Assembly: GCF_002218195.1 (NCBI RefSeq)
Contig: NZ_CP022336.1
Span: forward strand, 1,545,001-1,609,000
Direction of reading: 5' to 3'
Source of the DNA: Sphingorhabdus sp. SMR4y
Lineage (GTDB): Bacteria > Pseudomonadota > Alphaproteobacteria > Sphingomonadales > Sphingomonadaceae
Length of the DNA: 64,000 nucleotides
Shown: positions 316 to 28,480 of the stretch, piece by piece
Numbering within the stretch: the first letter of the stretch is position 1
Layout: every line of letters begins with the position of its first letter
Position numbers and translations under genes: made by a program
The notes under the pieces: model-generated
What the model was told of the DNA's origin: nothing
The model's input: only the letters and a program-made list of their open reading frames with translations
Databases searched by the model: none

Positions 316-324
316 CGGCACACT

Positions 325-753: not shown

Positions 754-874
754 TGCGCCTCTCCTCGGTTCTGATTCTGTTTCCAACATGTCTGTAACAT
801 ATTTTTGAATGTGATTGCGCTTGATGGTAACAGGATTCCCGTTCAATGCACTGAAAACCACCGGAGTCCCCCCC

Positions 875-1180: not shown

Positions 1181-1583
1181 CCTGAACGCACTGGCGAAGA
1201 TGCAGCCGGTATTGCGAGTTGCCCCGCAACCCCGCGATCTGAACAATAATGGCCATATATTCGGCGGCTGGGTGCTCTCGCAAATGGATATCGCCGGCGG
1301 GATTATGGCAGCGCGCGTAGCGCAGGGCTCAACCGCCACCGTAGCGATCGAAGCAATGGAATTTATCGCCCCCATCCTGACCCGCGACCTGATTTCCGTC
1401 TATGCCCGGGTGGAGCGAATCGGCAGGACATCGGTCGCGATCCGGCTGGACGTGATCGCGTCGCGCAATCTTGGTGAAGAGCGCGTGCCGGTTACCAGCG
1501 GCCTGTTCACCTTTGTCGCACTGGACGAGAATCACAATCCGCGCGTGATCCCTGAAACGTCCAGAGAGAAATATCTCGGCTAG
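1167..1583 (+). CDS. Acyl-CoA thioesterase, hotdog fold (YciA-like)
   Basis: A 138-residue single-hotdog protein. RDLNNNGHIFGGWVLSQMD matches the YciA/BACH-type acyl-CoA thioesterase signature, in which Asn/Asp and the GGW(V/L) helix form the active site; the later stretch VAIEAMEFIAPILTRDLISV is the second conserved strand. It would hydrolyse acyl-CoA to free acid plus CoA in the cytoplasm; chain-length preference cannot be read. The ATG at 1167 has AAGGA 11 bases upstream, inside the preceding gene. A longer start at 1122 overlaps more and adds unlikely sequence. It ends 3 bases from the convergent DUF4139 gene. Confidence 0.85.
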   Translation: MSKDDLNALAKMQPVLRVAPQPRDLNNNGHIFGGWVLSQMDIAGGIMAARVAQGSTATVAIEAMEFIAPILTRDLISVYARVERIGRTSVAIRLDVIASRNLGEERVPVTSGLFTFVALDENHNPRVIPETSREKYLG

Positions 1584-1586
1584 GGG

Positions 1587-3158: not shown

Positions 3159-3159
3159 A

Positions 3160-4539
3160 TCAGAACCGGGTCTCGAAGACCGCCGTGACTGTCGTCCGGC
3201 CGTTGGCGGGAACGGGTACCTTCCAGACCACCGAATCCGATGATCGCCGCTTGCTGGTCATGCTCTCGCTGACGATGCGGGTGTCATCCCAGTAAAAATC
3301 GAGACCGTTCTGGATTAGCGACACGGTGACCGCATCCGGTCGCGCGTTGCTCAGCTCGTAGCTCATGCTGGTGCGCCATTTCGACGATGACAGGCGCCGG
3401 CGTTCGGCCACGGTCGCTTTCACCTTGACATCAAATGCCTCGCCCGTTTTCAGCCCCAGTTCCGACCCCATCGGCGTATGGCCGATATTGTTTTCACCGA
3501 TAAATTGCGGCTGGCCAGCGGCATCCTTCATATAGACCCGGACGGTGCCGGCGGGCAGCGCATCGCCCAGTCCACCATCGCTGGAAGAACTGAATTCCAG
3601 CACCGTATCCACGCTTTGCGGTTCGTCCTGGGACCCAAGCCAGCGATTGGAATATTCATAGCTTTTCTGTGCCGAAGCGCCGGTCACGTCCAGAAAACTG
3701 ACTTGCTTGGTCTGGGCATTGGCAATGGTCGTGCGCGCCGCCAGCGGATAAAGATAGAAGTCACCCAACGATTCCCGGTCGACCGATTCAATGCCGACGC
3801 CGCGGATGTTGTTCCGCGACGCATAATTGCTTCGACCATTCACATTTGGCGTTCCGGCAACCAACAGGGTTTTGGCATTGTCGAAGGTCGTACCGGTAGT
3901 GTTGGTCAGCGTAACCCAGCCCTGCACGTCCATTTTGCCGGCTTTCTCGTCGAACAGGGCCACATAGTCGGCCTTCCAACCCAGACCCGAAGTCAGATAG
4001 CTGAGTTGGGCGGGACGGTTGCCTGCGCGGGAACTGTTCAGGGTCACCGACAGGGTTGGCCGGGCCCGCAAATTATCGGGGACTTTGTCAAAAATCACCC
4101 GCGTCGGCAGGCGGTCATCACGCAGCACTTCGATCCGGCTGCCGATTTGCAAGACAACGCCGCCATTGGCGGCCAGCACCTTTGCCCGTTCGCGGCTCTC
4201 GGATCCGGTAGCGGGGTTGATCCGCACAATCGTTATTGTTTCGCCCACCGCCTTCTCCATCAGCTTCGATGGAGACAGCAGATCATAATCGAAATTCTGT
4301 TCGACAATGCCAGTATTGGGAGCGGTAAAGCTGACCGTCTCGGCCCGGATCTGTCCGGAAACGCCGGGAAAGTCCTGAACCGATCTGCCGGCGGGAATGT
4401 CCAATTGCCGGACATCCTGCACCAGCGCCAGATTGTTGTTGTAGATCGTAACCGAGACCTCACCCTGCCCCGAAGACTGGCCGAGTGCCGGCGACGTTGT
4501 TGTCGCCAAGAACAATCCCGCAAGAACAAAAGGTCGCAT
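3160..4539 (-). CDS. DUF4139 domain-containing secreted protein (first of tandem pair)
   Basis: A 459-residue protein with a signal peptide ending near SPALGQS. It opens with EVSVTIYNNNLALVQDVR, typical of the N-terminal strand of DUF4139 proteins, and carries LSYLTSGLGWKADYVALFDE, the family core motif. It is shorter than the downstream paralogue and lacks its proline/methionine insert. The ATG at 4539 is preceded by GGGGAGAG, a strong ribosome site, which marks this as the lead gene of the two-gene operon. The predicted location is the periplasm or outer surface. Function is unknown; both proteins may work together because they are coexpressed. Confidence 0.8.
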   Translation of the reverse strand: MRPFVLAGLFLATTTSPALGQSSGQGEVSVTIYNNNLALVQDVRQLDIPAGRSVQDFPGVSGQIRAETVSFTAPNTGIVEQNFDYDLLSPSKLMEKAVGETITIVRINPATGSESRERAKVLAANGGVVLQIGSRIEVLRDDRLPTRVIFDKVPDNLRARPTLSVTLNSSRAGNRPAQLSYLTSGLGWKADYVALFDEKAGKMDVQGWVTLTNTTGTTFDNAKTLLVAGTPNVNGRSNYASRNNIRGVGIESVDRESLGDFYLYPLAARTTIANAQTKQVSFLDVTGASAQKSYEYSNRWLGSQDEPQSVDTVLEFSSSSDGGLGDALPAGTVRVYMKDAAGQPQFIGENNIGHTPMGSELGLKTGEAFDVKVKATVAERRRLSSSKWRTSMSYELSNARPDAVTVSLIQNGLDFYWDDTRIVSESMTSKRRSSDSVVWKVPVPANGRTTVTAVFETRF

Positions 4540-4600
4540 ATTGTCTCTCCCCTATCGAAACGCGATGCTAACGCATTGAAAATGAACCTCGTCTAAATGT

Positions 4601-6175
4601 CTATTGCGCCGGCCCGGCGCTGTCGGTCGGGGCTAGCCAGCGAAAGCGTGTGCCAGCGTCCGAAATGCCTCTGTCGAACTCTTCGGCGACGACGATATTC
4701 CTGGCCATCAGGGCCTCCCTTGCCACAGCCCTGTCCGGAGCGGTCCCGCTCATCCCCAATGGCAGGCCGATCCGCTCGGATGCCCAGATGATCACATCAA
4801 GATTATCGCCCGAGGCAGGGTCCACTGCACCATTTGCAATCCTGACCACCGGCAGCGCGATGGCCGGCGGCTGCAGCCTGATGATCCATCCCTTTGCAGC
4901 CGACGCAACCCGTTGCTCGAGGGCCCGATAGGATGCGAGTGTCGCCCCCGGCAATGGCTTGGCAACAACGACGGCGCGCCGCTTGTTGCTGTCCAGCGTT
5001 ACATCATCGACCGACACCCCGGCGATGAGAGCGAGATTCTCCCGCAATCGAGTCACCTGGATCTCGGCCTCCCGGGCCTGCGCCTGGGTTTTTGCAGCAG
5101 CCAGTTCCGCCGACCGTGCGTCTTCACCGGTTTCCACCTTGAACTGGTCGACATTGACCGTGATCGACCGCCCCAGAGACCGGCTCAAGACCCGCGAGCT
5201 CTGTTCGGCTGCTCCGGCAATGATTGTCGGCGTGAAAACCGTGGCATTGACGGTGATCGGGTCGGCAGCGAAATCAATCTCGATCTGCGATACGCTCGCC
5301 CGCTTGCCGAACTGGTCCTTGATATATCCGTTGGCGGAGCGCGAGACATTCGCCTCCCAGGCGATTTGGCGCAGCGAAAGGCCCAGCGGGATCGCCAGCG
5401 CGATGAAAACCACCACCATGGCAGCGATCTGGAACTGCGATTGCCGTTCGGACAAATAGGACCGAAAGCCGTAAAGCCAGGCCATGGCAGTCGCGGTCAG
5501 CGCAATCGTCATCAGGTTGGTGAAGAAAAGCAGCAACGAGCCGCCAAAGACAGCCCAGTTGAAGGTTGCCAGCCCGAAACCGACAACCGCTAGAGGCGGC
5601 ATCAGGGCGGTGGCGATCGCAACGCCGACGATCGTCCCCATTCTCCCGCGGATCATCGCATAAGCACCAGCCAGCGCGGAGAAAAGCGCGACGAGCAGAT
5701 CGAACAAATTGGGCCGTGTGCGAGCTGCAATTTCGGCGGTAACCGTTTGTAGCGGCGACAGAGTCACCACCAGTCCGGCAAACAGGATCGAGATGATGCT
5801 TCCCAACACGATTGCCTTGCCGCTTTCCCGCAACCAGGCAGAATCGCCGACGGCGAGCGCAAAGCCCGCCCCCATGATTGGCCCCATTAACGGTGAAAGC
5901 AGCATGGCGCCGATGACGACAGCCGGAGACGATAGCAGCAAGCCCAATATGGCAATGCCGGCCGACATCGAAGTCATGAAAGCGAAATGAGGCGTAAAAC
6001 CGCTGTCCTCCCGGACCTTGTCGATCACTGCCTGCTGCTCGACATCGGCGCGGACGACCATTCGCCACCAGCGACGAAACAGGCGAATGCTCCCGGTAAC
6101 CGGATCCAGCAGACCGGATGAGGACTTGGGTTTCAAAGCTTCCGGACCTGCCGCATTTGCCTGATTGTCTGTCAT
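4601..6175 (-). CDS. DUF389 family membrane protein
   Basis: A 524-residue protein. After a 50-residue cytosolic start it has a block of about six transmembrane helices, beginning FTPHFAFMTSMSAGIAILGL and SPAVVIGAMLLSPLMGPIMG, which are the defining motifs of DUF389 (the TIGR00341/TIGR00271-type family). The C-terminal half (after about residue 260) is soluble and includes a helical, Ala/Glu-rich segment near LAAAKTQAQAREAEIQV followed by a BON-like alpha/beta region. The family has been proposed to be membrane transport or channel related, but the substrate is unproven. The ribosome site before the ATG is weak. The gene ends 61 bases beyond the DUF4139 operon start and is probably separate. 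Confidence 0.85.
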   Translation of the reverse strand: MTDNQANAAGPEALKPKSSSGLLDPVTGSIRLFRRWWRMVVRADVEQQAVIDKVREDSGFTPHFAFMTSMSAGIAILGLLLSSPAVVIGAMLLSPLMGPIMGAGFALAVGDSAWLRESGKAIVLGSIISILFAGLVVTLSPLQTVTAEIAARTRPNLFDLLVALFSALAGAYAMIRGRMGTIVGVAIATALMPPLAVVGFGLATFNWAVFGGSLLLFFTNLMTIALTATAMAWLYGFRSYLSERQSQFQIAAMVVVFIALAIPLGLSLRQIAWEANVSRSANGYIKDQFGKRASVSQIEIDFAADPITVNATVFTPTIIAGAAEQSSRVLSRSLGRSITVNVDQFKVETGEDARSAELAAAKTQAQAREAEIQVTRLRENLALIAGVSVDDVTLDSNKRRAVVVAKPLPGATLASYRALEQRVASAAKGWIIRLQPPAIALPVVRIANGAVDPASGDNLDVIIWASERIGLPLGMSGTAPDRAVAREALMARNIVVAEEFDRGISDAGTRFRWLAPTDSAGPAQ

Positions 6176-8198: not shown

Positions 8199-10880
8199 CT
8201 AGCTCGCGAGATTTCTCAGCACATAATGCAGTATGCCGCCATTGAGGAAATATTCCATTTCATTGGCGGTATCGATCCGGCAGATCGTCTGGAAGGTCGA
8301 GGTTGTGCCGTCGGCGCGGGTCATTTCGACTTCGACTTCCTGCAACGGCTTCAGCGTTGCGACGCCCTTGATCGTGAAGCTCTCGCTGCCATCGAGGCTG
8401 AGGAGTTCGCGATCAAAACCCTCGGCGAACTGCAAGGGAAGAACGCCCATGCCGACGAGGTTCGAACGGTGGATCCGCTCGTAGCTTTCGACGATGACAG
8501 CGCGAACGCCGAGCAGGTTGGTGCCCTTCGCCGCCCAGTCGCGGGAGGAACCGGTGCCGTACTGCTCACCGCCGATGACGACCAATGGCGTGCCGTCGGC
8601 CTTGTGCTTCATCGCGGCGTCGTAGATCGGCATGACCTGGCCGTTATATTTGGTGTAACCGCCTTCTTTTCCGTCGGCCATTTCGTTTTTGATTCTGATG
8701 TTGGCGAAAGTGCCTCTCATCATGACTTCGTGGTTGCCGCGGCGGGAGCCGTATGAATTGAAGTCCTGCTTGCTAACCTGATGATTTTTCAGATATTCTC
8801 CAGCAGGGCTGTCCTCCTTGATCGCGCCGGCTGGCGAGATGTGGTCGGTGGTAATGCTGTCACCGAGCAGCGCCAGCGTCTTCGCCTCGATGATATCGCC
8901 GACCGGTTCGGGCGTCATCGTCATGCCTTCAAAATAAGGCGGATTGGCAACATAGGTCGAGCCCGCGCGCCATTGATAGGTGTCGCCGCCGGTGACGTCG
9001 ATATCCTGCCAGGCCGCGTCGCCCTTGTAGACATCGGCATAGCGGCTCATGAACATCTCGCGGTTGACCGCCCCGCCCATCGCTGCGTTGACCTCGGCAT
9101 TGGTCGGCCAGATGTCCTTGAGGAACACGTCCTCGCCGTCCTTGCCCTGGCCGATCGGCGTTTCATACATGTCGAGACGCACCGTGCCCTTCAGCGCATA
9201 GGCGACAACCAGCGGCGGCGAAGCGAGATAATTGGCCTGCACGTCCTGCGACACCCGGCCCTCGAAATTGCGGTTGCCCGACAGCACCGACGCGGCGACA
9301 ATGCCATTGTCGTTGATCGCCTTGCTGATCGGCGCCGGCAGCGGACCGCTATTACCGATACAGGTGGTGCAGCCATAGCCGACCAGGTTGAAGCCGAGAT
9401 AGTCCAGATCATCCTGCAATCCCGCCTTGTTGAGATAGTCGGTCACCACCTGCGATCCCGGCGCCAGCGAGCTTTTCACCCATGGCTTGCGCTGCAGACC
9501 CTTTTCGCGCGCCTTTTTCGCGACCAGACCGGCGGCGATCAGCACGCTCGGGTTGGAGGTGTTGGTGCAGGAGGTAATCGCGGCAATCGCGACATCGCCA
9601 TGGGCAAAGCCATGATCGCTGCCCTCGACATCGACCCGCTTGCCGTCATCCTCGACCCCGAAGACCTTCTGCAGGTCGCGGTTGAACTCTTCGTCCAGCT
9701 CACTCATCGACACGCGCTGCTGCGGCAGTTTCGGTCCGGAGAGCGACGGCACGACGCTGCTGATGTCGAGCTCCAGCGTCTTGGTGTAGATCGCGTCCTT
9801 GGTGGTCTCGTCATAGCGCCAGAAGCCTTGCTCCCGCGCATAGGCTTCGGTCAGCGCGATCTCGTCGGCGCTGCGGCCGGTCAGCTCGAGATATTCCAGC
9901 GTCTTTTCGTCGATCGGGAAATAGCCGCAGGTCGCGCCATATTCCGGCGCCATATTGGCAATGGTCGCGCGATCGGCGAGCGACAGTTCCTTCAGGCCCG
10001 GACCGTAAAATTCGACAAAGCTGCCGACCACGCCGACTTCGCGCAGCATCTGCACGCAGGTCAGCACCAGATCGGTCGCGGTAATGCCCTCGGCCAGCTT
10101 GCCGGTCAGCTTGAAGCCGACAACCGGTGGAATCAGCATCGACACCGGCTGGCCGAGCATCGCGGCTTCCGCCTCGATCCCGCCAACGCCCCAGCCGAGC
10201 ACGCCGAGACCGTTGATCATCGTGGTGTGGCTGTCGGTGCCGACGCAGGTGTCGGGATAGGCGACCAGATTGCCGTCGGCATCTTTCGACGACCAGACCG
10301 CCTTGGCGATATATTCCAGGTTCACCTGGTGGCAGATGCCGGTTCCCGGCGGCACCACGGAGAAATTGTCAAACGCCTGCGAACCCCATTTCAAGAATTC
10401 ATAGCGCTCCATGTTGCGCTGATATTCCAGCGCGACATTATTTTCAAAAGCCTGCGGCGTGCCGAATTCGTCGACCATCACCGAGTGATCGATGACCAGA
10501 TGCACCGGCACCTGCGGGTTGATCTTTTCAGCATCGCCGCCGAGCGCCTTGATCCCGTCGCGCATCGCGGCGAGATCAACCACCGCGGGCACGCCGGTGA
10601 AATCCTGCATCAGCACGCGGGCCGGGCGATATTGAATTTCCGCCGCGCTCTTGGCTTCCTTCTGCCAGTCGACCACCGCCTGCGCGTCTTTGGCGTCCAC
10701 GGTAAAGCCGCCATCCTCGAAGCGCAGCATATTTTCCAGCAGCACTTTCAGCGTGTAGGGCAGCTGGTCGATATTGCCGAGCTTTTCCGCCGCCTTGGCG
10801 AGCGAATAATAGCTGTAGTCGGTGCCGTTGACGGTCATCGTCGAGCGGGTGCCGAGTGTGTCTTTGCCGGTGGTTGTCAT
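8199..10880 (-). CDS. acnA: Aconitate hydratase A
   Basis: An 893-residue cytoplasmic enzyme, the usual length for AcnA, interconverting citrate and isocitrate through cis-aconitate in the TCA cycle. The three [4Fe-4S] cysteines are visible: one in [14 protein letters not shown] (about residue 437) and two in [14 protein letters not shown] (about residues 503 and 506). The C-terminal swivel domain carries the substrate-loop [20 protein letters not shown] and the [13 protein letters not shown] motif. It belongs to the iron-regulatory-protein-like aconitase A group by length and motif order. The ATG has GGAG 10 bases upstream. It is transcribed alone, pointing away from the Dcm cassette. Confidence 0.97.
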
Positions 10881-11030
10881 GGGTCTTTGCTCCGTTTTCT
10901 TATCGTTGGTTCAACCGCATGGGGAGAGCGTTGTAGGCAGCGCAGACGGTTGATGAATCAGGTTCGGGAGCGCTTTAGCTTATGGGTGTGGGAGTGGCAA
11001 TGGGTGGCAGCGTGAACAAAAGGAAAACAG

Positions 11031-12266
11031 TTGTCAGAATTAAGTAGATATGCAATTAACAATGCCGATGTCACCGAACAATTTTGGAGCCAAGTTTTGT
11101 ACACCAAAGATGACATAGAAAGTGCGTCAATCGGTACTCAGCGTGCGATCGCAGTCGAAAAAGCATTAGGGAACCTACCTGAACATTTGTCAGAATCCCG
11201 CGAAAACTTTAGATTTATAGATTTGTTTGCGGGCATTGGTGGAATTAGAATTCCGTTCGAAGAACTGGGTGGCTCATGTGTCTTGACTTCTGAATGGGAT
11301 AAATTTGCCCAGCTGACTTATGAAAGAAATTTCGGAGAAGTTCCACAAGGCGATATCACTAAAATTAGCGCGAAGTCTGTTCCGGATCATGAACTCTTGC
11401 TAGCAGGGTTTCCTTGCCAAGCATTCTCGTTGGCCGGCTTCAAGAGAGGTTTTTCCGATACCAGAGGAACCATGTTCTTCGAAATACAGCGTATGTTGGC
11501 AACTAAAAGGCCGAAAGCGTTTCTTCTTGAAAATGTGAAGCAACTTCGCGGACATGATGGTGGCCGTACTTTAGAGACAATATTAAAAATATTGAGGGGA
11601 GAAGACACGCCTTCGATCCCGCTCGACGTTCCGATGAGTCCTGAAGCTCGGCGCAGCATGTCTGTGAAACTGAACTATAATGTCGAGTATAAAGTTCTGA
11701 AAGCAACCGAGTTCGGTGTACCTCAAAACCGGGAACGCATATACATAGTCGGCTTCGATAAAGACGAATTTCCGGCACTGGACCTTAAAGATTTCTTCCA
11801 AAATTTGTCAGGAAAAGTTGAAACAACCAGACTTGGCGATGCACTTCAATCGCCTGAATCTATCCCAGAGAAATATACCATTTCTGACAAGCTACTCCTT
11901 GGTTTGGAAAAGCGGATGGAACGGCACCGGTTGAAGGGTAACGGGTTTGGCCACAGTGTGTTCAACTACGATAGCAAGCACTGTAATACAATTACCTCGC
12001 GCTATTATAAGGACGGACGGGAAATCCTGATCGACCAAAGTAAATTTGGTAAAAATCCAAGAAAATTAACACCTCGGGAATGCGCAAACATTCAAGGGTT
12101 CCCTGAGTGGTTCGATGTCTCGGCGGTCTCGGATACACAAGCTTATCGTCAGTTCGGAAATTCGGTATCCGTCCCCGTGATCCGATCAATTGCGAAGTCC
12201 ATGATAAATATTTTGCAATCTCAAACTGCGGTTCAGGAAAACGAGAAAGAAATCGCTGTTGGTTGA
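11031..12266 (+). CDS. Dcm-like DNA (cytosine-5)-methyltransferase
   Basis: A 411-residue C5-methylase. Motifs in order: I, DLFAGIGG (about residues 64-71); IV, GFPCQAFS with the catalytic Cys near 129; VI, LLENV; VIII, PQNRERIYIVGF; IX/X, RKLTPRECANIQGFPEWF and AYRQFGNSV. The target region and spacing, including KGNGFGHSVFNYDS and ITSRYYKDGREILID, resemble E. coli Dcm, so a CCWGG-like target is a reasonable guess but unproven. The start is a TTG with AAGGA 7 bases upstream. Base composition is clearly AT-richer than acnA next door, a sign of transfer. The stop overlaps the vsr start, giving a methylase-repair operon. Confidence 0.93.
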   Translation: MSELSRYAINNADVTEQFWSQVLYTKDDIESASIGTQRAIAVEKALGNLPEHLSESRENFRFIDLFAGIGGIRIPFEELGGSCVLTSEWDKFAQLTYERNFGEVPQGDITKISAKSVPDHELLLAGFPCQAFSLAGFKRGFSDTRGTMFFEIQRMLATKRPKAFLLENVKQLRGHDGGRTLETILKILRGEDTPSIPLDVPMSPEARRSMSVKLNYNVEYKVLKATEFGVPQNRERIYIVGFDKDEFPALDLKDFFQNLSGKVETTRLGDALQSPESIPEKYTISDKLLLGLEKRMERHRLKGNGFGHSVFNYDSKHCNTITSRYYKDGREILIDQSKFGKNPRKLTPRECANIQGFPEWFDVSAVSDTQAYRQFGNSVSVPVIRSIAKSMINILQSQTAVQENEKEIAVG

Positions 12267-12732
12267 CATTGTTTCGCCCGAAAAGCGTAGCAAAATGATG
12301 GCTGGGATTTCGGGGAAGAATACGAAGCCCGAATTAATCGTGCGGCGAATCCTTCATTCGCAGGGATTCCGATATCGGCTGCATGACAAATCGCTTCCAG
12401 GAAAACCGGACATCGTTTTAAGAAAATGGAACAAGGTTATCCTTGTTGATGGTTGCTTTTGGCATGGCCATAAAGACTGTGCTATATTCAGATTGCCTAA
12501 ATCAAGAACCGAATTTTGGCAGGCGAAAATCCAAAACAATATTCAGCGAGACCAAGCCAACATAAAACTTTTGGTATCGGAAGGTTGGGGAATTATTCGT
12601 ATTTGGGAATGCGCCACAAAAGGAAAGACACGAATTTCACCTCAAACCATGGCCGAAATCTTGAAAAAATCTGTCACGAAAAACCAGGCATTTGCTGAAG
12701 TTCGTGGAGGACCAGAAACTATCCGTACATAG
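12259..12732 (+). CDS. vsr: Very short patch repair endonuclease
   Basis: A 157-residue Vsr protein. MVDIVSPEKRSKMMAGISGK and NTKPELIVRRILHSQGFRYR are the conserved N-terminal lines; RLHDKSLPGKPDIVL and VDGCFWHGHKDC contain the catalytic Asp, the zinc-associated Cys/His residues and the FWHGH motif. It nicks 5' of the T in T:G mismatches that arise by deamination of 5-methylcytosine. The start is TTG at 12259, overlapping the methylase stop by 8 bases, so it is coupled to it. The C terminus runs a few residues longer than needed and overlaps the convergent HNH gene by 14 bases. Confidence 0.93.
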   Translation: MVDIVSPEKRSKMMAGISGKNTKPELIVRRILHSQGFRYRLHDKSLPGKPDIVLRKWNKVILVDGCFWHGHKDCAIFRLPKSRTEFWQAKIQNNIQRDQANIKLLVSEGWGIIRIWECATKGKTRISPQTMAEILKKSVTKNQAFAEVRGGPETIRT

Positions 12733-13591
12733 CGAATATGTCGTCACTTACTAAATCGAGTGATCGAATAAAATCGAGCCTTGTCTTTACGAGTATGTTC
12801 AACGAATCGACGATGTCATCGAACTTTCCGTGATGCAACATTCGATGAGATAGGGGATTAAGGACACATATATTCTCGATTGTATCAAGATTAATAGCAT
12901 CTTTGTATACCGTCTGCAGTTTCATAGGAACAAGATGATGTGCTTCCATGAATGGATTTCCAGTTGCTCTAGACACGAAAGTTGGGAATTCTGGATGGAT
13001 TTCACATTCGTAATTTTTAGACTTTAGTGCGCCAGCGGCTATCTTCGGGTCACGCTTCCATTGCATAGAATGGCTTTCCATCTGCTCGGGGGCGGCACTA
13101 TTGGCTTCGCTTTGAAAGTCGTCGATTTCGGCTTCGAGCAAGTGCCGATCATCAAATTGAAGTTCGTCATTTTTCAAGGCTCCGAACAACTTTTGACTAA
13201 AATTACAAATCCAGATCTCGCCTTTCTTTGTGAAAATTCCCCAGAATTCTCCTTCAGTCACCTTGAATTCTTCTGCATTGAAGTAAAGGCGAAGTTCCGT
13301 TCCTTTCGATTTGGCGTATTTCAGCTTGGGATACACTACTTGACCGGTAGTGAAGTGTCTAAAAGCTCGCCGAGCATCTAAACCTTTGCTAGCAAGCACC
13401 TCATCATTACCGCGATATTCGGAAAGCTCGGCTTCCCCGAAATAGTTTAAGGCCAATTTTTTTTCTTCGCCCGTAAGGGTAACCTGGCCATCATCTGCCT
13501 CTGTCGGAGTGACAATCGAATAAGCACCTTTATCAGCGCCGAAAAAAGCACATAGTCTCTGATCAAAAGGTTTGTCGCCACTCACCGCCAT
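12719..13591 (-). CDS. HNH nuclease, probable restriction partner of the Dcm/Vsr cassette
   Basis: About 290 residues. The C-terminal third carries an HNH nuclease: YECEIHPEFPTF, then GNPFMEAHHLVPMK with the paired His, and ENICVLNPLSHRMLHHG with the Asn/His metal ligands. The N-terminal two thirds are unassigned. I prefer the ATG at 13591, which follows AAGGGGGG, over the GTG at 13645 (18 residues longer, no ribosome site). It converges on vsr with overlapping ends and shares the AT-rich composition of the cassette. Its position makes it the likely restriction endonuclease for the Dcm-like methylase; this is inferred from context only. Confidence 0.75.
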   Translation of the reverse strand: MAVSGDKPFDQRLCAFFGADKGAYSIVTPTEADDGQVTLTGEEKKLALNYFGEAELSEYRGNDEVLASKGLDARRAFRHFTTGQVVYPKLKYAKSKGTELRLYFNAEEFKVTEGEFWGIFTKKGEIWICNFSQKLFGALKNDELQFDDRHLLEAEIDDFQSEANSAAPEQMESHSMQWKRDPKIAAGALKSKNYECEIHPEFPTFVSRATGNPFMEAHHLVPMKLQTVYKDAINLDTIENICVLNPLSHRMLHHGKFDDIVDSLNILVKTRLDFIRSLDLVSDDIFAMYG

Positions 13592-13665
13592 ATTGCCCCC
13601 CTTTTCGACAATTTTTTCAATAAGCATGTGTAATGTTTTACTCACGAATGGATAGATGAAAAATA

Positions 13666-13701
13666 GGAATTACGGTGACAGGTGGAATTACGGAGACAGG
13701 T
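13666..13701. repeat. Tandem 18-bp direct repeat
   Basis: Two head-to-tail copies of GGAATTACGGTGACAGGT; the second reads GGAATTACGGAGACAGGT, one mismatch. They sit upstream of the HNH gene, just before the palindromic repeat cluster. Motifs of the AATTACGGTGACAG type are, as I recall, frequent in the non-coding part of REP-associated tyrosine transposase elements, so this may be a relic; no transposase frame is present. Confidence 0.6.
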
Positions 13702-13824
13702 GCAACAATCCCCAAATAGGGGACCGATAAACCCTCAAATCTCTCGGTCCTGATGACGGAATATGCCCAGCACTGCCTTAAATATCTCTTGGACCAGCGT
13801 CAGAAAGACTCGGACTGCCGTAAT

Positions 13825-13895
13825 CCGTTCGCACTGAGCTTGTCGAAGTGCACCTGTCGTCTAGAAGTGTCCTTCGACAAGCTCAGGACGAACGG
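13825..13895. repeat. Sphingomonad-type palindromic repeat pair (copy A)
   Basis: An inverted pair: CCGTTCGCACTGAGCTTGTC... at 13825-13851 and its near reverse complement ending GCTCAGGACGAACGG at 13868-13895. The spacer is 16 bases. Paired this way they would form a stem of about 27 bp. The same element occurs at 14047, 37655, 55978, 56102 and inside ileS at 57727. Confidence 0.85.
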
Positions 13896-13910
13896 GGGTG
13901 GGGTGAGCTC

Positions 13911-14006
13911 GTCATCCTGAACTTGGTTCAGGATCCCGTGAGATTGGGCTGTGCCGGTGGGGTCCTGAGCCGAAGGCCACCGCAAGGTAAACGAGTTCAG
14001 GATGAC
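13911..14006. repeat. Second inverted-repeat family (GTCATCCTGAAC type)
   Basis: GTCATCCTGAACTTGGTTCA at 13911 contains its own small palindrome (CCTGAAC...GTTCAGG), and a divergent reverse copy ends GAGTTCAGGATGAC at 13993-14006. Between them lies GGTCCTGAGCCGAAGGCCAC, related to similar intergenic repeats. This is a different family from the CTTCGACAAGCTCAG element on either side. Confidence 0.7.
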
Positions 14007-14046
14007 GACGCTGTTGCGGTGAGATGGTGATGGTTGGGCTACCCCA

Positions 14047-14138
14047 CCGTTCGTGCTGAGCTTGTCGAAGCACGGGCTAGCGCCACCAAGTGCCCCTATT
14101 GCCGAAAGATGTCCTTCGACAGGCTCAGGACGAACGGT
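14047..14138. repeat. Palindromic repeat pair (copy B)
   Basis: CCGTTCGTGCTGAGCTTGTC... at 14047-14075 and the inverted partner TGTCCTTCGACAGGCTCAGG... at 14110-14138, separated by 34 bases. It ends 16 bases past the stop of the cinA-like gene, where it could serve as a transcript-end hairpin, though there is no T-run. Confidence 0.85.
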
Positions 14139-14154
14139 AGCACGGTCCCCGCCG

Positions 14155-14913
14155 CTAGATCCCGCCGTCAGTGACCTCGTAGCCGGCTTCTTCCAGCCCG
14201 GCTTTCAGCGCGACGCGGCAGGTTTCCAGGTCGTGCGGGTCGGTCGAGCGGACGACGAAATTGGCGCCGACCGTGCCGTTGCGAAAGAAGGGATAGCTGC
14301 CGATGACGCAGCTTTCGTGCGCCTTTTCCGCCTGGCGCAGCACGTCGGCGATCTCGCTTTCCGGGGCCCAGGCGCCGAGTGTCACGGACAGGAGCGGCGC
14401 GCCGCCTTCGAGCGTGCCGGTCAGCGCGTCGAGCATGCCGGCGGTGATATGGGGGACGCCGGCCATCAGATAGAGATTGTCGATGCGGATGCCGGGGGCG
14501 CCGGACATGCGGTTCTCGATCAGCTCGGCGCCCTCGGGCACGCGGGCCATGCGCAGCCGGCCCTCGTTGAGGCCGCCGCGGCTCTCGTAATATTGCTCCA
14601 GGATCGCGCGGGCCGTCGGGTGGATCACGACCTCGACGCCGAGCGCCGCGGCGACCGCGTCGACGGTGATGTCGTCATGGGTCGGGCCGATGCCGCCGGT
14701 GGTGAAGAGATAGTCGTTGCGCGCGCGCAGGATGTTCACCGCCTCGGCGATATGGTCCATGTCGTCGGCGATCACGCGGACCTCGGCGAGGCGGATGCCC
14801 TGCACGTTGAGCCAGCTCGCGACCTGGGCGATATTCTTGTCCTGGGTGCGGCCGGAGAGGATTTCGTCGCCGATCACGATCAGCGCGGCGGTCCAGATTT
14901 TTTCATTGCTCAT
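14155..14913 (-). CDS. Competence/damage-inducible protein A-like molybdopterin-binding domain protein
   Basis: A 252-residue protein with the MoaB/Mog (MPT-binding) fold in its N-terminal 170 residues. WTAALIVIGDEILSGRTQDK and FTTGGIGPTHDDITVDAVA are the standard signatures, the latter forming the nucleotide/pterin-binding loop. It has the CinA N-terminal domain only; the C-terminal amidase (PncC) domain of full CinA is absent, as is common in alphaproteobacteria. In CinA-family proteins this domain has ADP-ribose pyrophosphatase activity; that is only a possibility here. GC content is high, as in the native backbone, in contrast with both flanking AT-rich blocks. Confidence 0.85.
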   Translation of the reverse strand: MSNEKIWTAALIVIGDEILSGRTQDKNIAQVASWLNVQGIRLAEVRVIADDMDHIAEAVNILRARNDYLFTTGGIGPTHDDITVDAVAAALGVEVVIHPTARAILEQYYESRGGLNEGRLRMARVPEGAELIENRMSGAPGIRIDNLYLMAGVPHITAGMLDALTGTLEGGAPLLSVTLGAWAPESEIADVLRQAEKAHESCVIGSYPFFRNGTVGANFVVRSTDPHDLETCRVALKAGLEEAGYEVTDGGI

Positions 14914-15258
14914 GCTGCTGCTATAGAGCGATGCCGGGCGCTTTGGGAATATGTTATTTGGTACCGGTGGCCGGCTTTGTTCGCCAGTCGGGCTGATCGC
15001 CTGATTGAGGGTGCGCGTGATGGTACGCGTGATGGCCCGCCCGATGGCCGGCCCGATAATCCGGGCGCGGCGGACGGGCGATGCGGACGGGCGGCAGGCC
15101 GGGGCCGGTCAGGCCATATTGCAACCGGCCTGGCCTCACGGTGATCAGATTCCCCCGTTCCCCGGGCGGGCCGCATGAGGCAAGCGGGTTCAGATCCGGC
15201 AAAAATCACCGCTATTTCGGGTCTCGCCAAACGGCCACGCGATGCCTATATAGGCCGC
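14914..15258. other. Divergent intergenic region cinA-like/map
   Basis: A 345-base GC-rich spacer between divergently transcribed genes with no credible coding frame. It should hold both promoters, but I see no clear -35/-10 pair. Its one obvious feature is the 12-bp tandem repeat listed separately. Frames crossing it are arginine/proline-rich and look like composition artefacts. Confidence 0.6.
15015..15062. repeat. Four degenerate 12-bp tandem repeats
   Basis: Head-to-tail units GCGTGATGGTAC, GCGTGATGGCCC, GCCCGATGGCCG and GCCCGATAATCC. They lie in the divergent spacer upstream of map. Likely products of replication slippage; a regulatory role is not supported. Confidence 0.7.
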
Positions 15259-16083
15259 ATGACAGACTATATGACCGTAGAAGACACCACCCCGCAATCC
15301 CGCACCGGCGCGATCAAGCTGCACGGGCCGGAAGCTTTTGAAGGCATGCGCAAGGCCGGACGCCTCGCCGCCGATATCCTCGACAGCCTGGTCCCGCATG
15401 TCGTCCCCGGCGTCACCACCGGCGCGCTCGACGACATGGTCCGCCAGCAGGCCTTTGCCGCCGGCGCGGTCCCCGCGACCCTAGGCTATCGCGGATTTAC
15501 CCATAGCTGCTGCACCTCGATCAACCATGTCGTCTGCCACGGTATTCCCGGTGACAAGAAGCTCAACGAGGGCGATATCGTCAATATCGACGTGACCGTG
15601 ATCGTCGACGGCTGGCACGGCGACACCAGCCGCATGTATCTGGTCGGCAAGACCCCGATCAAGGCAAGCAAGCTGGTCCAGGTGACCTATGAATGCCTGA
15701 TGCTCGGCATCGAGCAGGCGGTCCCGGGCAACCGGATGGGCGACGTTGCCCACGCGATCCAGAGCCACGCCGAAGCCCACCGCTATTCGGTGGTCCGCGA
15801 TTTCTGTGGCCACGGCCTCGGCCAGATGTTCCACGACGCCCCCGAAGTCGTCCACGCCGGCCGCCCCGGCACCGGCCCGGAACTGCGCCCCGGCATGTTC
15901 TTCACCATCGAGCCGATGATCAATATCGGAAAATATGCCTGCAAGATGCTGGATGATGGCTGGACGGCGGTGACCCGCGACCGGTCGCTGACGGCGCAGT
16001 TCGAGCATAGTATCGGGATTACCGAGGACGGGAACGAGATATTTACGAAGAGTGCGGCTGGGTTGGATGCGCCGCCTTATTAG
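15259..16083 (+). CDS. map: Methionine aminopeptidase, type I
   Basis: A 274-residue enzyme that removes the initiator Met from nascent proteins. All five metal ligands are visible: Asp in GDIVNIDVTVIVDG, Asp in WHGDTSRMYLVG, His in FCGHGLGQMFHDAP, Glu in GMFFTIEPMINIG and Glu in AQFEHSIGIT; the substrate His lies in FTHSCCTSINHVVCHG. It lacks the type II insert. I start at ATG 15259 (MTDYMTVED); the next ATG at 15271 is an alternative, and the frame back to 15175 is unlikely to be coding. Neither start has a strong ribosome site. Its 3' end overlaps a truncated antitoxin-like frame on the other strand. Confidence 0.96.
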   Translation: MTDYMTVEDTTPQSRTGAIKLHGPEAFEGMRKAGRLAADILDSLVPHVVPGVTTGALDDMVRQQAFAAGAVPATLGYRGFTHSCCTSINHVVCHGIPGDKKLNEGDIVNIDVTVIVDGWHGDTSRMYLVGKTPIKASKLVQVTYECLMLGIEQAVPGNRMGDVAHAIQSHAEAHRYSVVRDFCGHGLGQMFHDAPEVVHAGRPGTGPELRPGMFFTIEPMINIGKYACKMLDDGWTAVTRDRSLTAQFEHSIGITEDGNEIFTKSAAGLDAPPY

Positions 16084-16186
16084 GTTTTGCTTCCGGCACA
16101 ATGCGCGCGCGGAATCGCTTGCCCTGAACGAAGGCGGTCGCATCCTTGACGCCTTTCAAGATGCCAATAAAATCTTTGTGCTTCAT
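16043..16186 (-). pseudogene. Truncated HTH antitoxin-like gene (HigA/XRE type, N-terminal remnant)
   Basis: A 47-codon frame starting MKHKDFIGILKGVKDATAFV and QGKRFRARIVP, preceded by GGAG at 9 bases. This opening resembles the N terminus of XRE-family antitoxins of the HigA kind, which start M-x-x-K-x-F-x-x-I-x-x-G-x-x-x-A and then continue into a helix-turn-helix. Here the frame stops about 15 residues later, before any DNA-binding helix, and its tail lies inside map on the opposite strand. No partner toxin is adjacent. I read it as a remnant left when the neighbouring AT-rich block was inserted or deleted; a genuine 47-residue protein is possible but less likely. Confidence 0.4.
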
Positions 16187-16302
16187 TGTCTCGACTCCAA
16201 GCTGCCCGCATTGTCACGGATTAAGCCACGAGCAAGCGGCTCAACTGTAGGTTGTGTCGAATATAATCTAGCGATTAATAGCAGAAATACTAATGACGTT
16301 TA

Positions 16303-16647
16303 CTAGCTGACAAACCAACGGTGTTCTTTTCCATCCCAACCGTGATATCTATTGTGAAATGCAGATAATACACCCTCATACTGAGACATAACTAAAATTG
16401 CATCACTGTATTGAGGAAGCACTTCGTCATCTAGAAGATCAAGGTACTTGCTTTCTGGTTCGTCGTGGGTGAAGGATTTTATGTCTTCAAGAATTCTATT
16501 GATGAATTTAACTTTCGATTCGCTGAGAGTGTCAGCTGGTTTTTTCATTCCAAGAGCTTTCAGTTCTTTGTGCATATGCAGAAAGGCTGACGCGACCCCA
16601 TCATAAGCTTCCGCTTTCTCCTTGGTAGTAGAGCTCTGCATTTTCAT
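16303..16647 (-). CDS. Unknown small helical protein, third gene of nuclease cassette
   Basis: A 114-residue protein without recognised domains, signal peptide or membrane helices. It is mostly charged alpha-helix, with the conserved-looking stretch YLDLLDDEVLPQYSDAILVM and SQYEGVLSAFHNRY. This pairs with FDLFDPDDVPSNSDATVVLT and SYLEELERY in the 125-residue neighbour, so the two are diverged paralogues. The ATG overlaps the upstream stop by 4 bases (ATGA), which indicates translational coupling. The gene is AT-rich like the rest of the cassette. I do not recognise its function; an accessory or immunity-type partner of the nuclease is conceivable. Confidence 0.75.
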   Translation of the reverse strand: MKMQSSTTKEKAEAYDGVASAFLHMHKELKALGMKKPADTLSESKVKFINRILEDIKSFTHDEPESKYLDLLDDEVLPQYSDAILVMSQYEGVLSAFHNRYHGWDGKEHRWFVS

Positions 16648-17021
16648 TTGTTTTGCAATCTTTTTGGAGGGTTTGTGCGGACACGAGTATCGTCGTCAAA
16701 GATGTAAAAATAATAACCCGAGAGATTCTCTATATTGTCACTGCGATAACGTTCTAATTCTTCCAAATACGAAGTTAGGACTACGGTTGCATCGCTGTTA
16801 CTCGGAACATCGTCAGGATCGAACAAGTCGAACTCTTCTATCGGTTTATAAGCGGCCCCCAAAATCTCATTTGCAACGGATAGAAAACCGTTCAAAATTT
16901 TTAACTTGAATCCATTCAACGCGTCTGTGGATGACTTTTTGGCCAAAAGAGAAAATTCTCTGTGCAATCCTTCTAACTGCCCGGTGACTTTTTCTAGTTG
17001 TTCGACATCTTCAATATTCAC
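16644..17021 (-). CDS. Unknown small helical protein, second gene of nuclease cassette
   Basis: A 125-residue protein. The N-terminal 60 residues are heptad-like (EQLEKVTGQLEGLHREFSLL), suggestive of coiled coil or helical bundle; the C terminus ends in a short beta-prone segment (GYYFYIFDDDTRVR) and a basic tail. The central SDATVVLTSYLEELERY aligns with SDAILVMSQYEGVLSAF of the downstream protein. The GTG start has AGGA 8 bases upstream and follows the nuclease stop by 8 bases, so all three genes form one operon. No signal peptide. Function not recognised. Confidence 0.75.
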   Translation of the reverse strand: MNIEDVEQLEKVTGQLEGLHREFSLLAKKSSTDALNGFKLKILNGFLSVANEILGAAYKPIEEFDLFDPDDVPSNSDATVVLTSYLEELERYRSDNIENLSGYYFYIFDDDTRVRTNPPKRLQNK

Positions 17022-17029
17022 AGCGATTC

Positions 17030-18403
17030 CTAACTTGGACAGGCCCTAGAAAATTCAACATATTTTTTTGTTACCACGTCTAAAGGTAGTCGCTGTTTGC
17101 TAGCAAACAACTCAACCATTTGTGCAATATCTTCATCGAGCAATGTGACTATACAACGCCGCTGGCCGCTCCACAGATCAATAGTGTTTTGAAACCGTGC
17201 CCTTGATAAACGATTGCGCGTCACCAATATCCCAAATTTTCCAAGTGTATCGGTCATATATCGGTTCAATTGGTTGATATGATCTCTGCTAACTGCACCA
17301 ACATTCTTCATTTCAAAAACCAACTGTCTCGAATCAAACTGATCCATGATATCTTTCAAGAACTCGTTCGAACGATTATTATAAAAGATTAAATCGCGTA
17401 TTTGCGATCCGCTATCGGTTCTACTTTGTGCCTGAGCAAAATCCAATTGCGGATAGAGTAGCGAGGGCAGAAGTTCGCAAATAGCATTCTCGTAATCTTG
17501 GTCGGCGTTATCAGTCTTTCCGGTAGGCAAACCTGCAATGAGTTTTAATTTTCGTTTGGCTGAAACGATTGGTATCTGCGAAAATAAGGGATCGTTCTGA
17601 CAATCATTACCAGTGCGCTCTTTTCTGGTGATGTAGCTATCAATAGCACCGTAATTTTCCCTATTGTAATTCAAGACTTCAATACGTCCAATATCCTCGA
17701 CGTCGTGAGAGATATCATCCAACGGGCAATGACTTTTGAAATAGTCATCATAATTAATCCAAGGAGTGAACCTTAGCCATCGCTTTGGTACCAAAATCAA
17801 AGGTTGATTGGTTTGAGGATGGTTTGGCAGCTGTATATTCTCGGCTTCTTCAAACCCATTTTTTCGGTAATCATAAAGGTCAGCGACAGTACACATTTCG
17901 GTTGGTATTCCGAGTTTCGCACATTGGTCGATCGTAAAATCAATCAAAAAAGACTTCAAAAAATTGCACGCGATATCACTGATTCTATCTTTTGAAATTC
18001 CCTCTGTGTAGAATTGAATTTCTTCGAAGTGCCGGAACCCCTGATCTCTATACCGAGGTATAATCTTAAAAAGTTCTAATACTTCGACTGCTTTCTCTTT
18101 CCCTATCCTTTTCCCTTTTCGCCTCGCAGAGGAACCCAATCCGACTTCATCGCATTCTGATGCTTTGATTAGGTTTTCAATCGCCTCCGCCTCCTGTCCA
18201 TTGCAGTAAGAGTGGCCCAACTGATTGAAGGCATTGATAAGCCCCGTATGCAACATTTGATCTTGTTGAGCCGGAGATGCCCAAAGAAGGAATGGATCAA
18301 GGTATAAAGGGATATCTTCTTCAAAGTGCGGAATCGCAAAATCTAGTTCACTTTGAGGAATGAGGATACCGTGATAATCCGTCAATCGTGGAGATATTAG
18401 CAA
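17030..18403 (-). CDS. PD-(D/E)XK-like nuclease, lead gene of an unrecognised cassette
   Basis: A 457-residue protein. The C-terminal part has a restriction-like pattern: Asp337 in SGSQIRDLIFYNN, Glu364 and Lys366 in QLVFEMKNVG (E-x-K), then HINQLNRYM with Gln378 and Tyr382, the Q-x-x-x-Y that follows the core in many PD-(D/E)XK nucleases. The N-terminal 300 residues begin SPRLTDYHGILIPQSELDFA and DIPLYLDPFLLW; I do not recognise this region. The start is TTG with GGA upstream. The gene is clearly AT-richer than its flanks. Next to toxin-antitoxin debris and near a restriction cassette, it is a candidate defence nuclease, but that is inference from context. Confidence 0.75.
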   Translation of the reverse strand: MLISPRLTDYHGILIPQSELDFAIPHFEEDIPLYLDPFLLWASPAQQDQMLHTGLINAFNQLGHSYCNGQEAEAIENLIKASECDEVGLGSSARRKGKRIGKEKAVEVLELFKIIPRYRDQGFRHFEEIQFYTEGISKDRISDIACNFLKSFLIDFTIDQCAKLGIPTEMCTVADLYDYRKNGFEEAENIQLPNHPQTNQPLILVPKRWLRFTPWINYDDYFKSHCPLDDISHDVEDIGRIEVLNYNRENYGAIDSYITRKERTGNDCQNDPLFSQIPIVSAKRKLKLIAGLPTGKTDNADQDYENAICELLPSLLYPQLDFAQAQSRTDSGSQIRDLIFYNNRSNEFLKDIMDQFDSRQLVFEMKNVGAVSRDHINQLNRYMTDTLGKFGILVTRNRLSRARFQNTIDLWSGQRRCIVTLLDEDIAQMVELFASKQRLPLDVVTKKYVEFSRACPS

Positions 18404-18517
18404 TGTGTTTAGTCCAATAGAGTTATACGCTGATCATGACGTAACCTATCTCTATCTATAGTGCACTTTTATCTTCGTGATGATGACCTCAGAAAAAAGT
18501 GCGCCGCCACCGCTGCC

Positions 18518-18808
18518 CTAAAACTCCCGCTCAAAATCCACCCCGTGCTGCACCACCCACACGATAAACAGCCCCTCCCGCTCACCCCTGTAAAACACAA
18601 CATGCGCCTGCTGGCGGATGCGGCGCAGGTCCGGGGCGACTTCCTCCGCGCTGCGGCCGAGCGCAGGGTTGGCGAGCAGGGACTGGAAACAGGCCTGCAA
18701 CTGGTCGCGATAGCGCCGGGCCTGATCGATGCCGAATTCGGCAATCGTATAATCGGCTATTTCGGCCAGGTCGCTGGCGGCGCGCCTGATCGGGCGCAGG
18801 TCAGCCAT
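18518..18808 (-). CDS. RelE/ParE family toxin
   Basis: A 96-residue ParE-type protein. IRRAASDLAEIADYTIAEFG is the N-terminal helical hairpin; RYRDQLQACFQSLLANPALG and the strands RRIRQQAHVVFYRGE and LFIVWVVQHGVDFEREF are the conserved core and C terminus of ParE, which poisons DNA gyrase in characterised members. It is of full length. The upstream antitoxin is broken (see the remnant at 18852), leaving a 43-base gap where coupling would be expected. Either the toxin is inactive or silent, or another antitoxin neutralises it. Confidence 0.85.
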   Translation of the reverse strand: MADLRPIRRAASDLAEIADYTIAEFGIDQARRYRDQLQACFQSLLANPALGRSAEEVAPDLRRIRQQAHVVFYRGEREGLFIVWVVQHGVDFEREF

Positions 18809-18851: not shown

Positions 18852-18992
18852 CTAGTCGCTGGTGCCGTTGGCGAGGCCCTCGGCTATTGCGGCGCGCAAC
18901 GTGGCCAGCCGGCCTTGCTGCGACTGGTCGCGTTTGACCAGATCGCGGATATATGCGCTGTCATTGGTGAATTCGCTGTAATCCAGAAGTCC
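18852..18992 (-). pseudogene. ParD antitoxin, C-terminal remnant
   Basis: A frame ending LLDYSEFTNDSAYIRDLVKR, then DQSQQGRLATLRAAIAEGLA before TAG. This is the C-terminal half of a ParD antitoxin (the YIRDLV(K/R)RDQ motif and the helix binding ParE). The usual N-terminal ribbon-helix-helix is missing: upstream of about 18992 the frame continues into sequence belonging to the lasso-type precursor gene with no start or RHH motif. The break point lies within a few bases of the precursor stop codon, which suggests a recombination joint. Confidence 0.65.
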
Positions 18993-18996
18993 GGCG

Positions 18997-19155
18997 CTAG
19001 CTGGGGCCGATGGGCGATCCAAAGGCTGTGTCCTCTGTACTGACCGGGAAGCCCTTGCCTTCGGTTAAAAGCGTGTGCGTCAGTTCGATCAGCGCAGGCT
19101 TTTCATATTTTTTTATAACCGTCGGTACGTTTGCTTCACTTTCATTGGTCTTCAT
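18997..19155 (-). CDS. Lasso-peptide-type RiPP precursor (orphan)
   Basis: A 52-residue peptide. The leader has the Y-x-x-P-x-L motif (KKYEKPALIEL; Tyr17, Pro20, Leu22) that binds the lasso leader-recognition protein. Leader Thr31 sits at position -2 to Gly33. The putative core is GKGFPVSTEDTAFGSPIGPS: Gly1 could be joined to Glu9 as a nine-residue macrolactam ring, leaving an 11-residue tail. The ATG at 19155 has a strong AAGGAG ribosome site; a longer frame to 19230 is unlikely. No lasso cyclase, leader peptidase, transporter or isopeptidase gene lies in this window, so it is an orphan here. Leader family call is solid; the ring assignment is inference. Confidence 0.7.
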   Translation of the reverse strand: MKTNESEANVPTVIKKYEKPALIELTHTLLTEGKGFPVSTEDTAFGSPIGPS

Positions 19156-19492
19156 TTCCAAACTCCTTCGACCGTCAAATGGGCGGGTCGGTGCGCGTCG
19201 GCTGAATGCGCGTACCGGCCTGATTTTCATAAACTTTATTTTCGGACCTCACAAATATATTCCGCTCTCCCACAACCGGTGGATTGGCATGGACGCGGCA
19301 AAGGCGGAATTCGGTCATCTGCCGCAAGCGCCGGAATGACTGCTTTCGTTTGCTTGCCGACCGTTCGCTCCCGCGACTCGAAACCGGAAGCTGCGACATC
19401 GGACATGGACCAGCAGCCAATCTTTGTCTGGCAATCCCACCCGCGTCTCCCTAGGCAAGCCCCTCACCTCCCACCAACCGAGACCCCAAAAC
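19156..19492. other. Divergent spacer upstream of the lasso-type precursor
   Basis: 337 bases between the precursor (minus strand) and the HNH gene (plus strand). It carries the precursor ribosome site at its left end. The minus-strand stretch around 19215-19250 is AT-rich and could hold the precursor promoter, but no convincing -35/-10 pair is visible. Frames spanning it have no family resemblance. Confidence 0.5.
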
Positions 19493-28041: not shown

Positions 28042-28480
28042 GATCTATTGAGGGGAATAGTCCCTGATGGTCGGGGCTGCCGCCGGGCGCGTTAACTCGG
28101 TCCGAAAGCTGAAGTTTCCGTTAATAAAAAAGTGACTTTACCTTCCGTATCCTTTGAATTCAGGCAAACCAAAACAGGCTTTTCATATTCACGCTTGATT
28201 GTCGGCTCGTGAGTTTTCGCGTCCATGATATTCAATTCAGTGCTCCTTTCAGGATTGCTGCTGTCGACCGGATGCCGAGATCAGCAAGCTTTGTGCAGAT
28301 ATTACATGGTCTGAATCTACAAAAATTTCGTTTCCGTTCAACGAAAAAAGAAGCGACGGGAATCACTGTAACAGCTTCCGGTCCTTCGCGGACAGCAACC
28401 GGGGCATGATGGCGGCGGCGCGTGACCGGATCGGCTGCAAAATGCAGGCCCGCCTTTCGCCACTCTGCCTTCTGATAGCT
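28042..28480. other. Gene-free region between the glnA terminator and tamB
   Basis: About 440 bases without a supported gene, oddly AT-rich in the middle (28110-28340). A 29-codon plus-strand frame at 28225 begins like a lipoprotein (LLSGLLLSTGC) but lacks a ribosome site and is rejected. TTCGTTTCCGTTCAACGAA at 28328-28346 is a small inverted repeat. It may be the downstream region of the long tamA-tamB transcript; no terminator for it was found. Confidence 0.5.

Follow-up and report, generated by a model that had tools for sequence, protein, structure and literature searches.

Genome mining for lasso peptides usually seeks a precursor gene adjoining a cyclase gene. A looser arrangement is known from the prochlorosins, lanthipeptides in which one promiscuous enzyme acts on many precursors, some of them encoded away from the enzyme gene; their enzymes are unrelated to the lasso set. 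According to the accessible parts of the papers cited in this paragraph, lasso leaders carry the motif [Y/W]xxPx[L/V/I/A/F/Y] (PMC13381572), PadeB1 holds its own leader with nanomolar affinity, handing it on to B2 (PMC5067487), and in Bacillota a Tyr or Trp in the leader sorts precursors between RREs (PMC13381572). In the case of paeninodin, the kinase adds phosphate to the Ser that ends the precursor, a residue conserved in kinase-bearing clusters (PMC9266682); Ile or Val at position -2 is reported for kinase-linked lasso precursors, those of Sphingomonadales included, and one kinase of this group modifies Ser3 instead (PMC10368454). The accessible text also describes the LPP family, with a YxxP leader, a PqqD-like RRE and a kinase, for which a macrolactam is not known (PMC13381572). 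Titles and the beginnings of abstracts in the open-access PMC literature that we searched describe no unlinked lasso precursor, which does not prove that none has been reported; a term search for such precursors was likewise negative in the accessible text of PMC13352647, and the phrases "no precursor" and "genomically distant" in that of PMC9576775 and PMC12282076 concern other matters. The novel element of the system proposed below would be its dispersed, trans-served arrangement, as opposed to the usual tight lasso gene cluster.

From sequence comparison, we think it likely that an ORF at 18997-19155 in the window (the whole 64,000-nucleotide stretch analysed) from Sphingorhabdus sp. SMR4y (G000) specifies a lasso-peptide precursor whose maturation takes place in trans, through a distant cyclase, B1 and B2 locus serving about ten precursors. 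The ORF lies on the minus strand, with an ATG at 19155, 52 codons and a TAG stop at 18999-18997, and an AAGGAG ribosome-binding site (19163-19168, minus strand) stands 7 nt before the ATG. The 52-residue product divides into a leader, MKTNESEANVPTVIKKYEKPALIELTHTLLTE, and a predicted 20-residue core, GKGFPVSTEDTAFGSPIGPS (19000-19059, minus strand), in which Gly33 would be core residue 1 and Glu41 (codon 19033-19035) core residue 9, the two closing a Gly1-Glu9 ring; the cut site, and hence the core start, are predictions. The leader motif Y17-E-K-P20-A-L22 (19090-19107, minus strand), the expected B1-binding site, matches the lasso consensus, its Tyr lies 16 residues from core residue 1, and Thr31 occupies position -2, so that the ORF shows the small residue 1, the Asp or Glu at 7-9 and the Thr(-2) of the lasso rules. 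The preliminary description had read all of these residues and the ribosome-binding site exactly as they stand; it gave no strand, and it overlooked a second precursor of the same family in the window, MDAKTHEPTIKREYEKPVLVCLNSKDTE / GKVTFLLTETSAFGPS, at 28092-28226 on the minus strand (start codon uncertain; E = 7.9e-17 and 3.1e-15). Its statement that the window holds no cyclase or protease was borne out, because none of the genome's PF00733 or PF13471 matches falls within it. The broken parD that it placed downstream is plausible by eye as an apparent remnant of the C-terminal half of a ParD antitoxin (18852-18996, minus strand) abutting the precursor stop codon; this stretch has no Pfam or PDB-sequence match, whereas the ParE toxin homologue beyond it (18518-18808, minus strand) does match Pfam (PF05016, 61.1 bits, cut-off 23). 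That the apparent remnant starts right after the precursor stop suggests a rearrangement junction. At 17030-18403 there is a 457-aa ORF with a sub-threshold match to the PDDEXK_3 nucleases (17.3 bits, cut-off 22).

The 18997-19155 ORF had no match in NCBIfam, none by tblastn in plasmids, and in Pfam only a sub-threshold one to DUF5972 (12.1 bits, cut-off 22.6). As a lone query against 147 relatives it gave weak matches in its own genome (E 0.003 to 0.7) and in congeners, which share a common build: K-x-YEKP-x-L, a small residue followed by Lys, a Glu and a final Ser. A family profile that includes the ORF matched it at E = 1.1e-22. When the ORF was left out, a profile of the 21 other precursors still matched it at 2.3e-9 among the 1587 six-frame segments of the window, and a 12-row profile from which all G000 rows were removed did so at 1.8e-6 in the window, the rows of both having been aligned together before removal and most of them stemming from searches begun with this ORF; the sole further window match of the 12-row profile at E≤10 was the second precursor (28092-28280). 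Over 222,511 bases of G000 the 12-row model recovered all ten precursors described below (E from 5.6e-13 to 0.0076, the weakest being 1764443) and one atypical peptide, with nothing else at E≤10, and the reversed profile gave no match at E≤10 over the same 222,511 bases.

G000, a single 3.48 Mb contig, encodes ten precursors of this one family at six chromosomal places, ~44 kb to 1.1 Mb from the cyclase gene C1: 1564000 (the 18997-19155 ORF) and 1573095 (the second in the window), 1764443 and 1768382, 1847841, 1969321, 2777996, and an array of 2809357, 2809819 and 2810272. This count treats as one place each the two precursors of the window, separated by 9 kb, the two at 1.764 and 1.768 Mb, separated by 4 kb, and the three of the array. 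Among 24 candidates scored with a model that includes these rows, ten fell at E≤1.9e-12, one atypical peptide at 0.003 and nothing more to E = 10; models A1, A3 and A4 contain the rows found, and the leave-out search is the check on counts made with them. We analysed 17 precursors, ten from G000, four from the congener G016 and three from the congener G003, leaving aside the atypical RAS peptides (G000, G003, G016 and G029), the altered precursor of G004, a weak match in G008 (E = 0.055), five out-of-genus precursors and the WxxP ORF of a second G000 cluster (cluster II, below).

All 17 congeneric precursors have [Y/W]xxP in the leader, its first residue being Tyr in 16 and Trp in one (YxxP in 9/10 from G000), and the leader Pro is invariant in the 22 rows of alignment A4. 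All 17, across three species, also end in Ser, and in the register that we chose each has Glu at core position 9 (11 precursors) or 8 (6), counts that the kinship of the precursors inflates. Shuffled cores placed Glu at 8 or 9 with a probability of 0.12-0.15 per core; multiplying these probabilities would not yield a fair p-value, given the kinship of the peptides. Core residue 1 is Gly in 14, Ser in two and Ala in one, and residue 2 is Lys in 17/17, the core start having been set before that Lys, whose column is invariant in the 16-row alignment. The distance from the Tyr or Trp to core residue 1 is 16 residues in 14 precursors, 15 in two and 17 in one, and passes over an earlier Ser/Ala-Lys in three rows. 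Two features count against the main reading: with the earlier Ser/Ala-Lys taken as the start, 1573095, G016a and G016d have no acid at 7-9, and Thr at -2 is only partially kept (Thr 10, Ala 3, Val 2, Ser 2). Taking the orthology of the compared pairs as given, the leader was more alike than the core in all six cross-species pairs compared (89 v 38, 70 v 55, 68 v 47, 56 v 43, 45 v 35 and 56 v 30% identity) and in two of three within-genome pairs; the 18997-19155 precursor and 1573095 show a slight reversal (leader 41%, core 45%), again against the main reading.

Also against the main reading, a common upstream element is unsupported: the best 7-mer occurred in 4/10 upstream regions, a count reached by 3/200 shuffles, and with one array member kept the maximum was 3/8, reached by 219/500. 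The heptamer ATGCTTA lies 85-89 bases before the start of 2809357, 2810272 and 1969321 (L030, L094) and 88 before that of one G016 precursor; it is absent at 85-89 bases from the other precursors and not significant overall. A CxxCxxCC-type gene adjoins precursors with LEDxT(E/D)GK in G000 (L096 4533-5174 and L097 4585-5292, tested with PF03692) and, by eye, in G003 (L100 5792-6493). Conserved frames of 36-48 aa with Y(E/A)KPELIQLSEIHE and a SLFRAS ending, and without a lasso core, are found at G000:C1:3100965 (L098), G003:C2:2059340, G016:C1:1996325 and G029:C66:21817, the last in a genome in which the B2 search found none.

The lasso-type enzymes of G000 are encoded ~155 kb from the 18997-19155 precursor in a locus (L029) with the gene order HPr-kinase-like, sulfotransferase, ATP-grasp, cyclase C1, B1, B2 and MFS, its enzyme ORFs being uninterrupted. 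C1 (G000:C1:1718329-1720215) carries PF00733 Asn-synthase and GATase_7 glutamine-amidotransferase domains and scored 239.7 bits against NF033535, below the cut-off of 525, which counts against the main reading. B1 (G000:C1:1720392-1720676, ~156 kb from the precursor) scored 85.5 bits against NF033536 (cut-off 80), with the lasso PqqD chaperone 9x90_B (4.9e-15) and TbiB1 as its best PDB-sequence matches, and the B2 protease (G000:C1:1720680-1721183) scored 70 bits against NF033537 (cut-off 33). The B2 family PF13471 has a single match in the whole of G000 (1720818-1721156), adjoining the Asn-synthase-type gene at 1.718 Mb; the B2 Cys and His are kept in 15/15 aligned sequences (from 13 of the 29 loci L065-L093, plus G000 and G002), and B2 gave no match when searched against PDB sequences. 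By eye, the product of the HPr-kinase-like gene (PF07475, 35.7 bits, cut-off 33.3) shows the His (LHG), Lys (GKS) and Asp-Asp (ADD) of the published kinase motif (PMC9266682). The sulfotransferase belongs to PF00685, and the ATP-grasp gene (PF14397, L029 7102-8463), a possible extra tailoring step, overlaps the end of the cyclase ORF. By eye, a similar ATP-grasp gene in G016 (L105 5750-7030) overlaps the end of the cyclase ORF there.

With B1, B2 and C all in its genome (C1 below the NF033535 cut-off), G000 has the complement of a lasso system, and the HPr-kinase-like gene in the enzyme locus together with the Ser that ends all 17 precursors places it with the kinase-linked, paeninodin-type systems. 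The usual lasso arrangement, in which the precursor is encoded with the enzymes, is not the one seen in G000: no family precursor stands beside C1, the nearest being ~44 kb off with none closer at E≤10 among the 24 candidates scored; a divergent local precursor could still lie there. The search of the genome for a lasso cyclase and protease that the preliminary description had proposed thus found C1 and B2, and of the two possibilities it had offered, maturation genes elsewhere or a cluster relic, the first is supported by the lasso-type cyclase, B1 and B2 ~155 kb away and the second is disfavoured for 18997-19155. It had no means of seeing that the ORF is a member of a dispersed family of ten and that the lasso enzyme locus of this genome is without an adjoining precursor of that family, and the conservation in relatives on which it had made its reading depend was found, the leader motif, Glu spacing and terminal Ser recurring in the paralogues and in two congeners.

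If the 18997-19155 precursor is expressed, its YxxPxL leader would be bound by B1, B2 would cleave after Glu32, and C1 would link the amino group of Gly1 with the side chain of Glu9; the resulting 20-residue lasso would be threaded and perhaps active. As in paeninodin, the HPr-kinase-like enzyme would probably phosphorylate the C-terminal Ser before cleavage, and by the same analogy the C-terminal Ser of the dispersed precursors at large is probably phosphorylated. The sulfotransferase and the ATP-grasp enzyme may carry out further tailoring, and the MFS protein may export the product. The one enzyme locus would in this way serve the dispersed precursors, whose leader motif is conserved and whose cores differ.

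Core-bearing precursors occur, among 32 genus genomes, in G000, G016 and G003, and with an altered tail in G004, while a search of 147 relatives found PF13471 matches within the genus in G000, G002, G003, G016 and G025 (where the frames are longer). G016 is a clean, simpler congener that repeats the G000 pattern. It has one PF13471 (B2) match, one PqqD and a single match to the query C2, the cyclase-like protein of cluster II in G000; this match is a C1-type cyclase, 83% identical to G000 C1, and all three lie together at 0.50 Mb, with four core-bearing precursors dispersed elsewhere and none near the enzymes. In G003, B1 and B2 are present; C1 matched only over residues 1-546 of 628 and the flank differs, which speaks against a working C1 there, and that three core-bearing precursors are nevertheless found in G003 counts against the main reading. 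G002 has B2 without B1 or C on a 10.8-kb contig, and no precursor match. The G004 precursor (L107, G004:C165, near 3210) keeps its leader motif and has an altered tail and no terminal Ser; it looks decayed, in a draft that is 67% complete and has no B2 match. A scan of genome contigs with a two-row cyclase alignment found one locus, in Sphingorhabdus sp. 109. The G000 array lies in a sirtuin neighbourhood. Of the 30 genus genomes that have this sirtuin, G000, G016 and G003 alone yielded precursors within 1.5 kb downstream; the permease found after the array in G000 was reachable only in G016 and the G029 contig is too short to judge, so that clean empty sites are not shown.

Cyclase matches at E≤1e-60 were found in 6 of 397 family genomes drawn evenly, namely G000 and five from other genera. 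The Sphingomonadaceae clusters of G033, G185, G246, G335 and G422 encode a homologous cyclase, and in 5/5 a precursor-like ORF (Y/FxxP and a Ser end, found by pattern and by eye) lies against the cyclase ORF, overlaps it or comes shortly after it; several also have kinase-like and sulfotransferase-like ORFs, as read by eye. Given this adjacency in all five out-of-genus clusters, clustering is probably the ancestral state and dispersal the later one.

G000 has two further clusters with related genes. Cluster II, at 0.33 Mb (L028, G000:C1:323000-342000, 8992-18413), comprises a PqqD (G000:C1:331742-331939), C2 just downstream of it, a WxxP precursor-like ORF (15163-15474, found by eye and giving no match with the family profile), a kinase-like gene that scores below cut-offs, possibly a second such gene, oxygenases/hydroxylases, two sulfotransferases and a GT8 gene, and has no PF13471 B2 gene. 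Cluster III, at 1.764-1.768 Mb (L097, G000:C1:1763000-1774000, 312-5535), comprises a WxxP precursor, an Asp-hydroxylase-type gene, a kinase-like gene whose product is 29.5% identical to the main-locus kinase, the third PqqD of G000 (1.766 Mb), a sulfotransferase, a CxxCxxCC protein and a second precursor, with no cyclase or B2; 1764443 and 1768382 flank this module. Given C2 with its PqqD and the third PqqD, enzymes other than those of the main locus might serve the 18997-19155 precursor, which counts against the main reading. The ORF could thus be a true lasso precursor served by cluster II or by a mix of modules, and C2 does reach 324 bits against the lasso cyclase model, more than the 239.7 of C1, and has a PqqD just upstream, while the position of 1764443 and 1768382 around a cluster with its own PqqD would fit a mix. 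We nonetheless find such service unlikely: at E≤1e-30 C2 itself is confined to G000 among the 32 genus genomes (the identity of the other matches is 28-33%), dispersed precursors occur in G016 in the absence of C2, and cluster II includes a WxxP precursor-like ORF of its own, seen by eye, and no PF13471 gene. A tentative extension of the main reading joins these elements: the enzyme locus, lacking a precursor of its own, might serve the ten or so dispersed precursors, and clusters II and III, each with a WxxP-led ORF, might rely on the only B2 of the genome, and perhaps on C1, with precursors being sorted between RREs by the Tyr or Trp of their leaders.

It is also rather improbable that the product is an RRE-guided RiPP other than a lasso, for example a linear phosphorylated peptide of the LPP kind. 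The accessible text of PMC13381572 does describe LPP leaders and enzymes as resembling the lasso ones, and cluster III, with a PqqD, a kinase-like gene and a sulfotransferase and without a cyclase or B2, fits this. Against it, Glu at 8 or 9 in 17/17 cores, in the chosen register, is lasso grammar, the only PF13471, PqqD and C2-query matches of G016 sit together, and no LPP-type signal peptidase gene was noticed among the ORFs read. Lower still we rank a decaying relic, left beside a disrupted parD by a rearrangement and neither expressed nor matured. The precursor does abut the apparent parD remnant, and congeners show what decay may look like, G004 with its altered precursor tail and no B2 match, G002 with B2 alone and no precursor match; a relic is only a low rival because the precursor ORF and the enzyme ORFs of the same genome are uninterrupted, and the ORF also keeps a good ribosome-binding site and the conserved residues. 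A chance ORF with a lasso-like look can be dismissed, since the weak own-genome matches of the lone query (E 0.003 to 0.7) are outweighed by the leave-out matches (E = 2.3e-9 and 1.8e-6) and by a reversed profile that matches nothing.

If the 18997-19155 ORF is indeed a precursor matured in trans, a lasso enzyme locus that lacks a precursor is not necessarily defunct, and unlinked precursors are being missed. One natural enzyme set would then accept some ten cores whose rings are predicted to have 8 or 9 residues, offering a test of cyclase tolerance and of leader-guided sorting, and G016, as the simpler congener, makes the dispersed-precursor reading directly testable.

Among known systems, the paeninodin-type clusters (PadeK, ThcoK, SyanK) resemble the G000 system in their split B1/B2, cyclase, HPr-kinase-like enzyme and C-terminal Ser. 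They differ in that their precursors are usually in the cluster, compared with 0/10 in the G000 enzyme cluster, in the G000 ATP-grasp gene that overlaps the end of the cyclase ORF, and in their leaders, which in Bacillota paeninodin-like precursors are nearly always WxxP according to the accessible text of PMC13381572, against YxxP in nine of the ten from G000. The five Sphingomonadaceae clusters share the homologous cyclase and the Ser-ending ORF with Y/FxxP, and differ in that this precursor-like ORF adjoins the cyclase. The LPP family, in the accessible description (PMC13381572), is alike in its YxxP leader, RRE and kinase, and unlike in that it is not lasso and was described in Bacillota. 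As to arrangement, the proposed G000 system would be like the prochlorosins in having one enzyme set and many precursors, some of them distant, and differs from them in that they belong to the lanthipeptide class.
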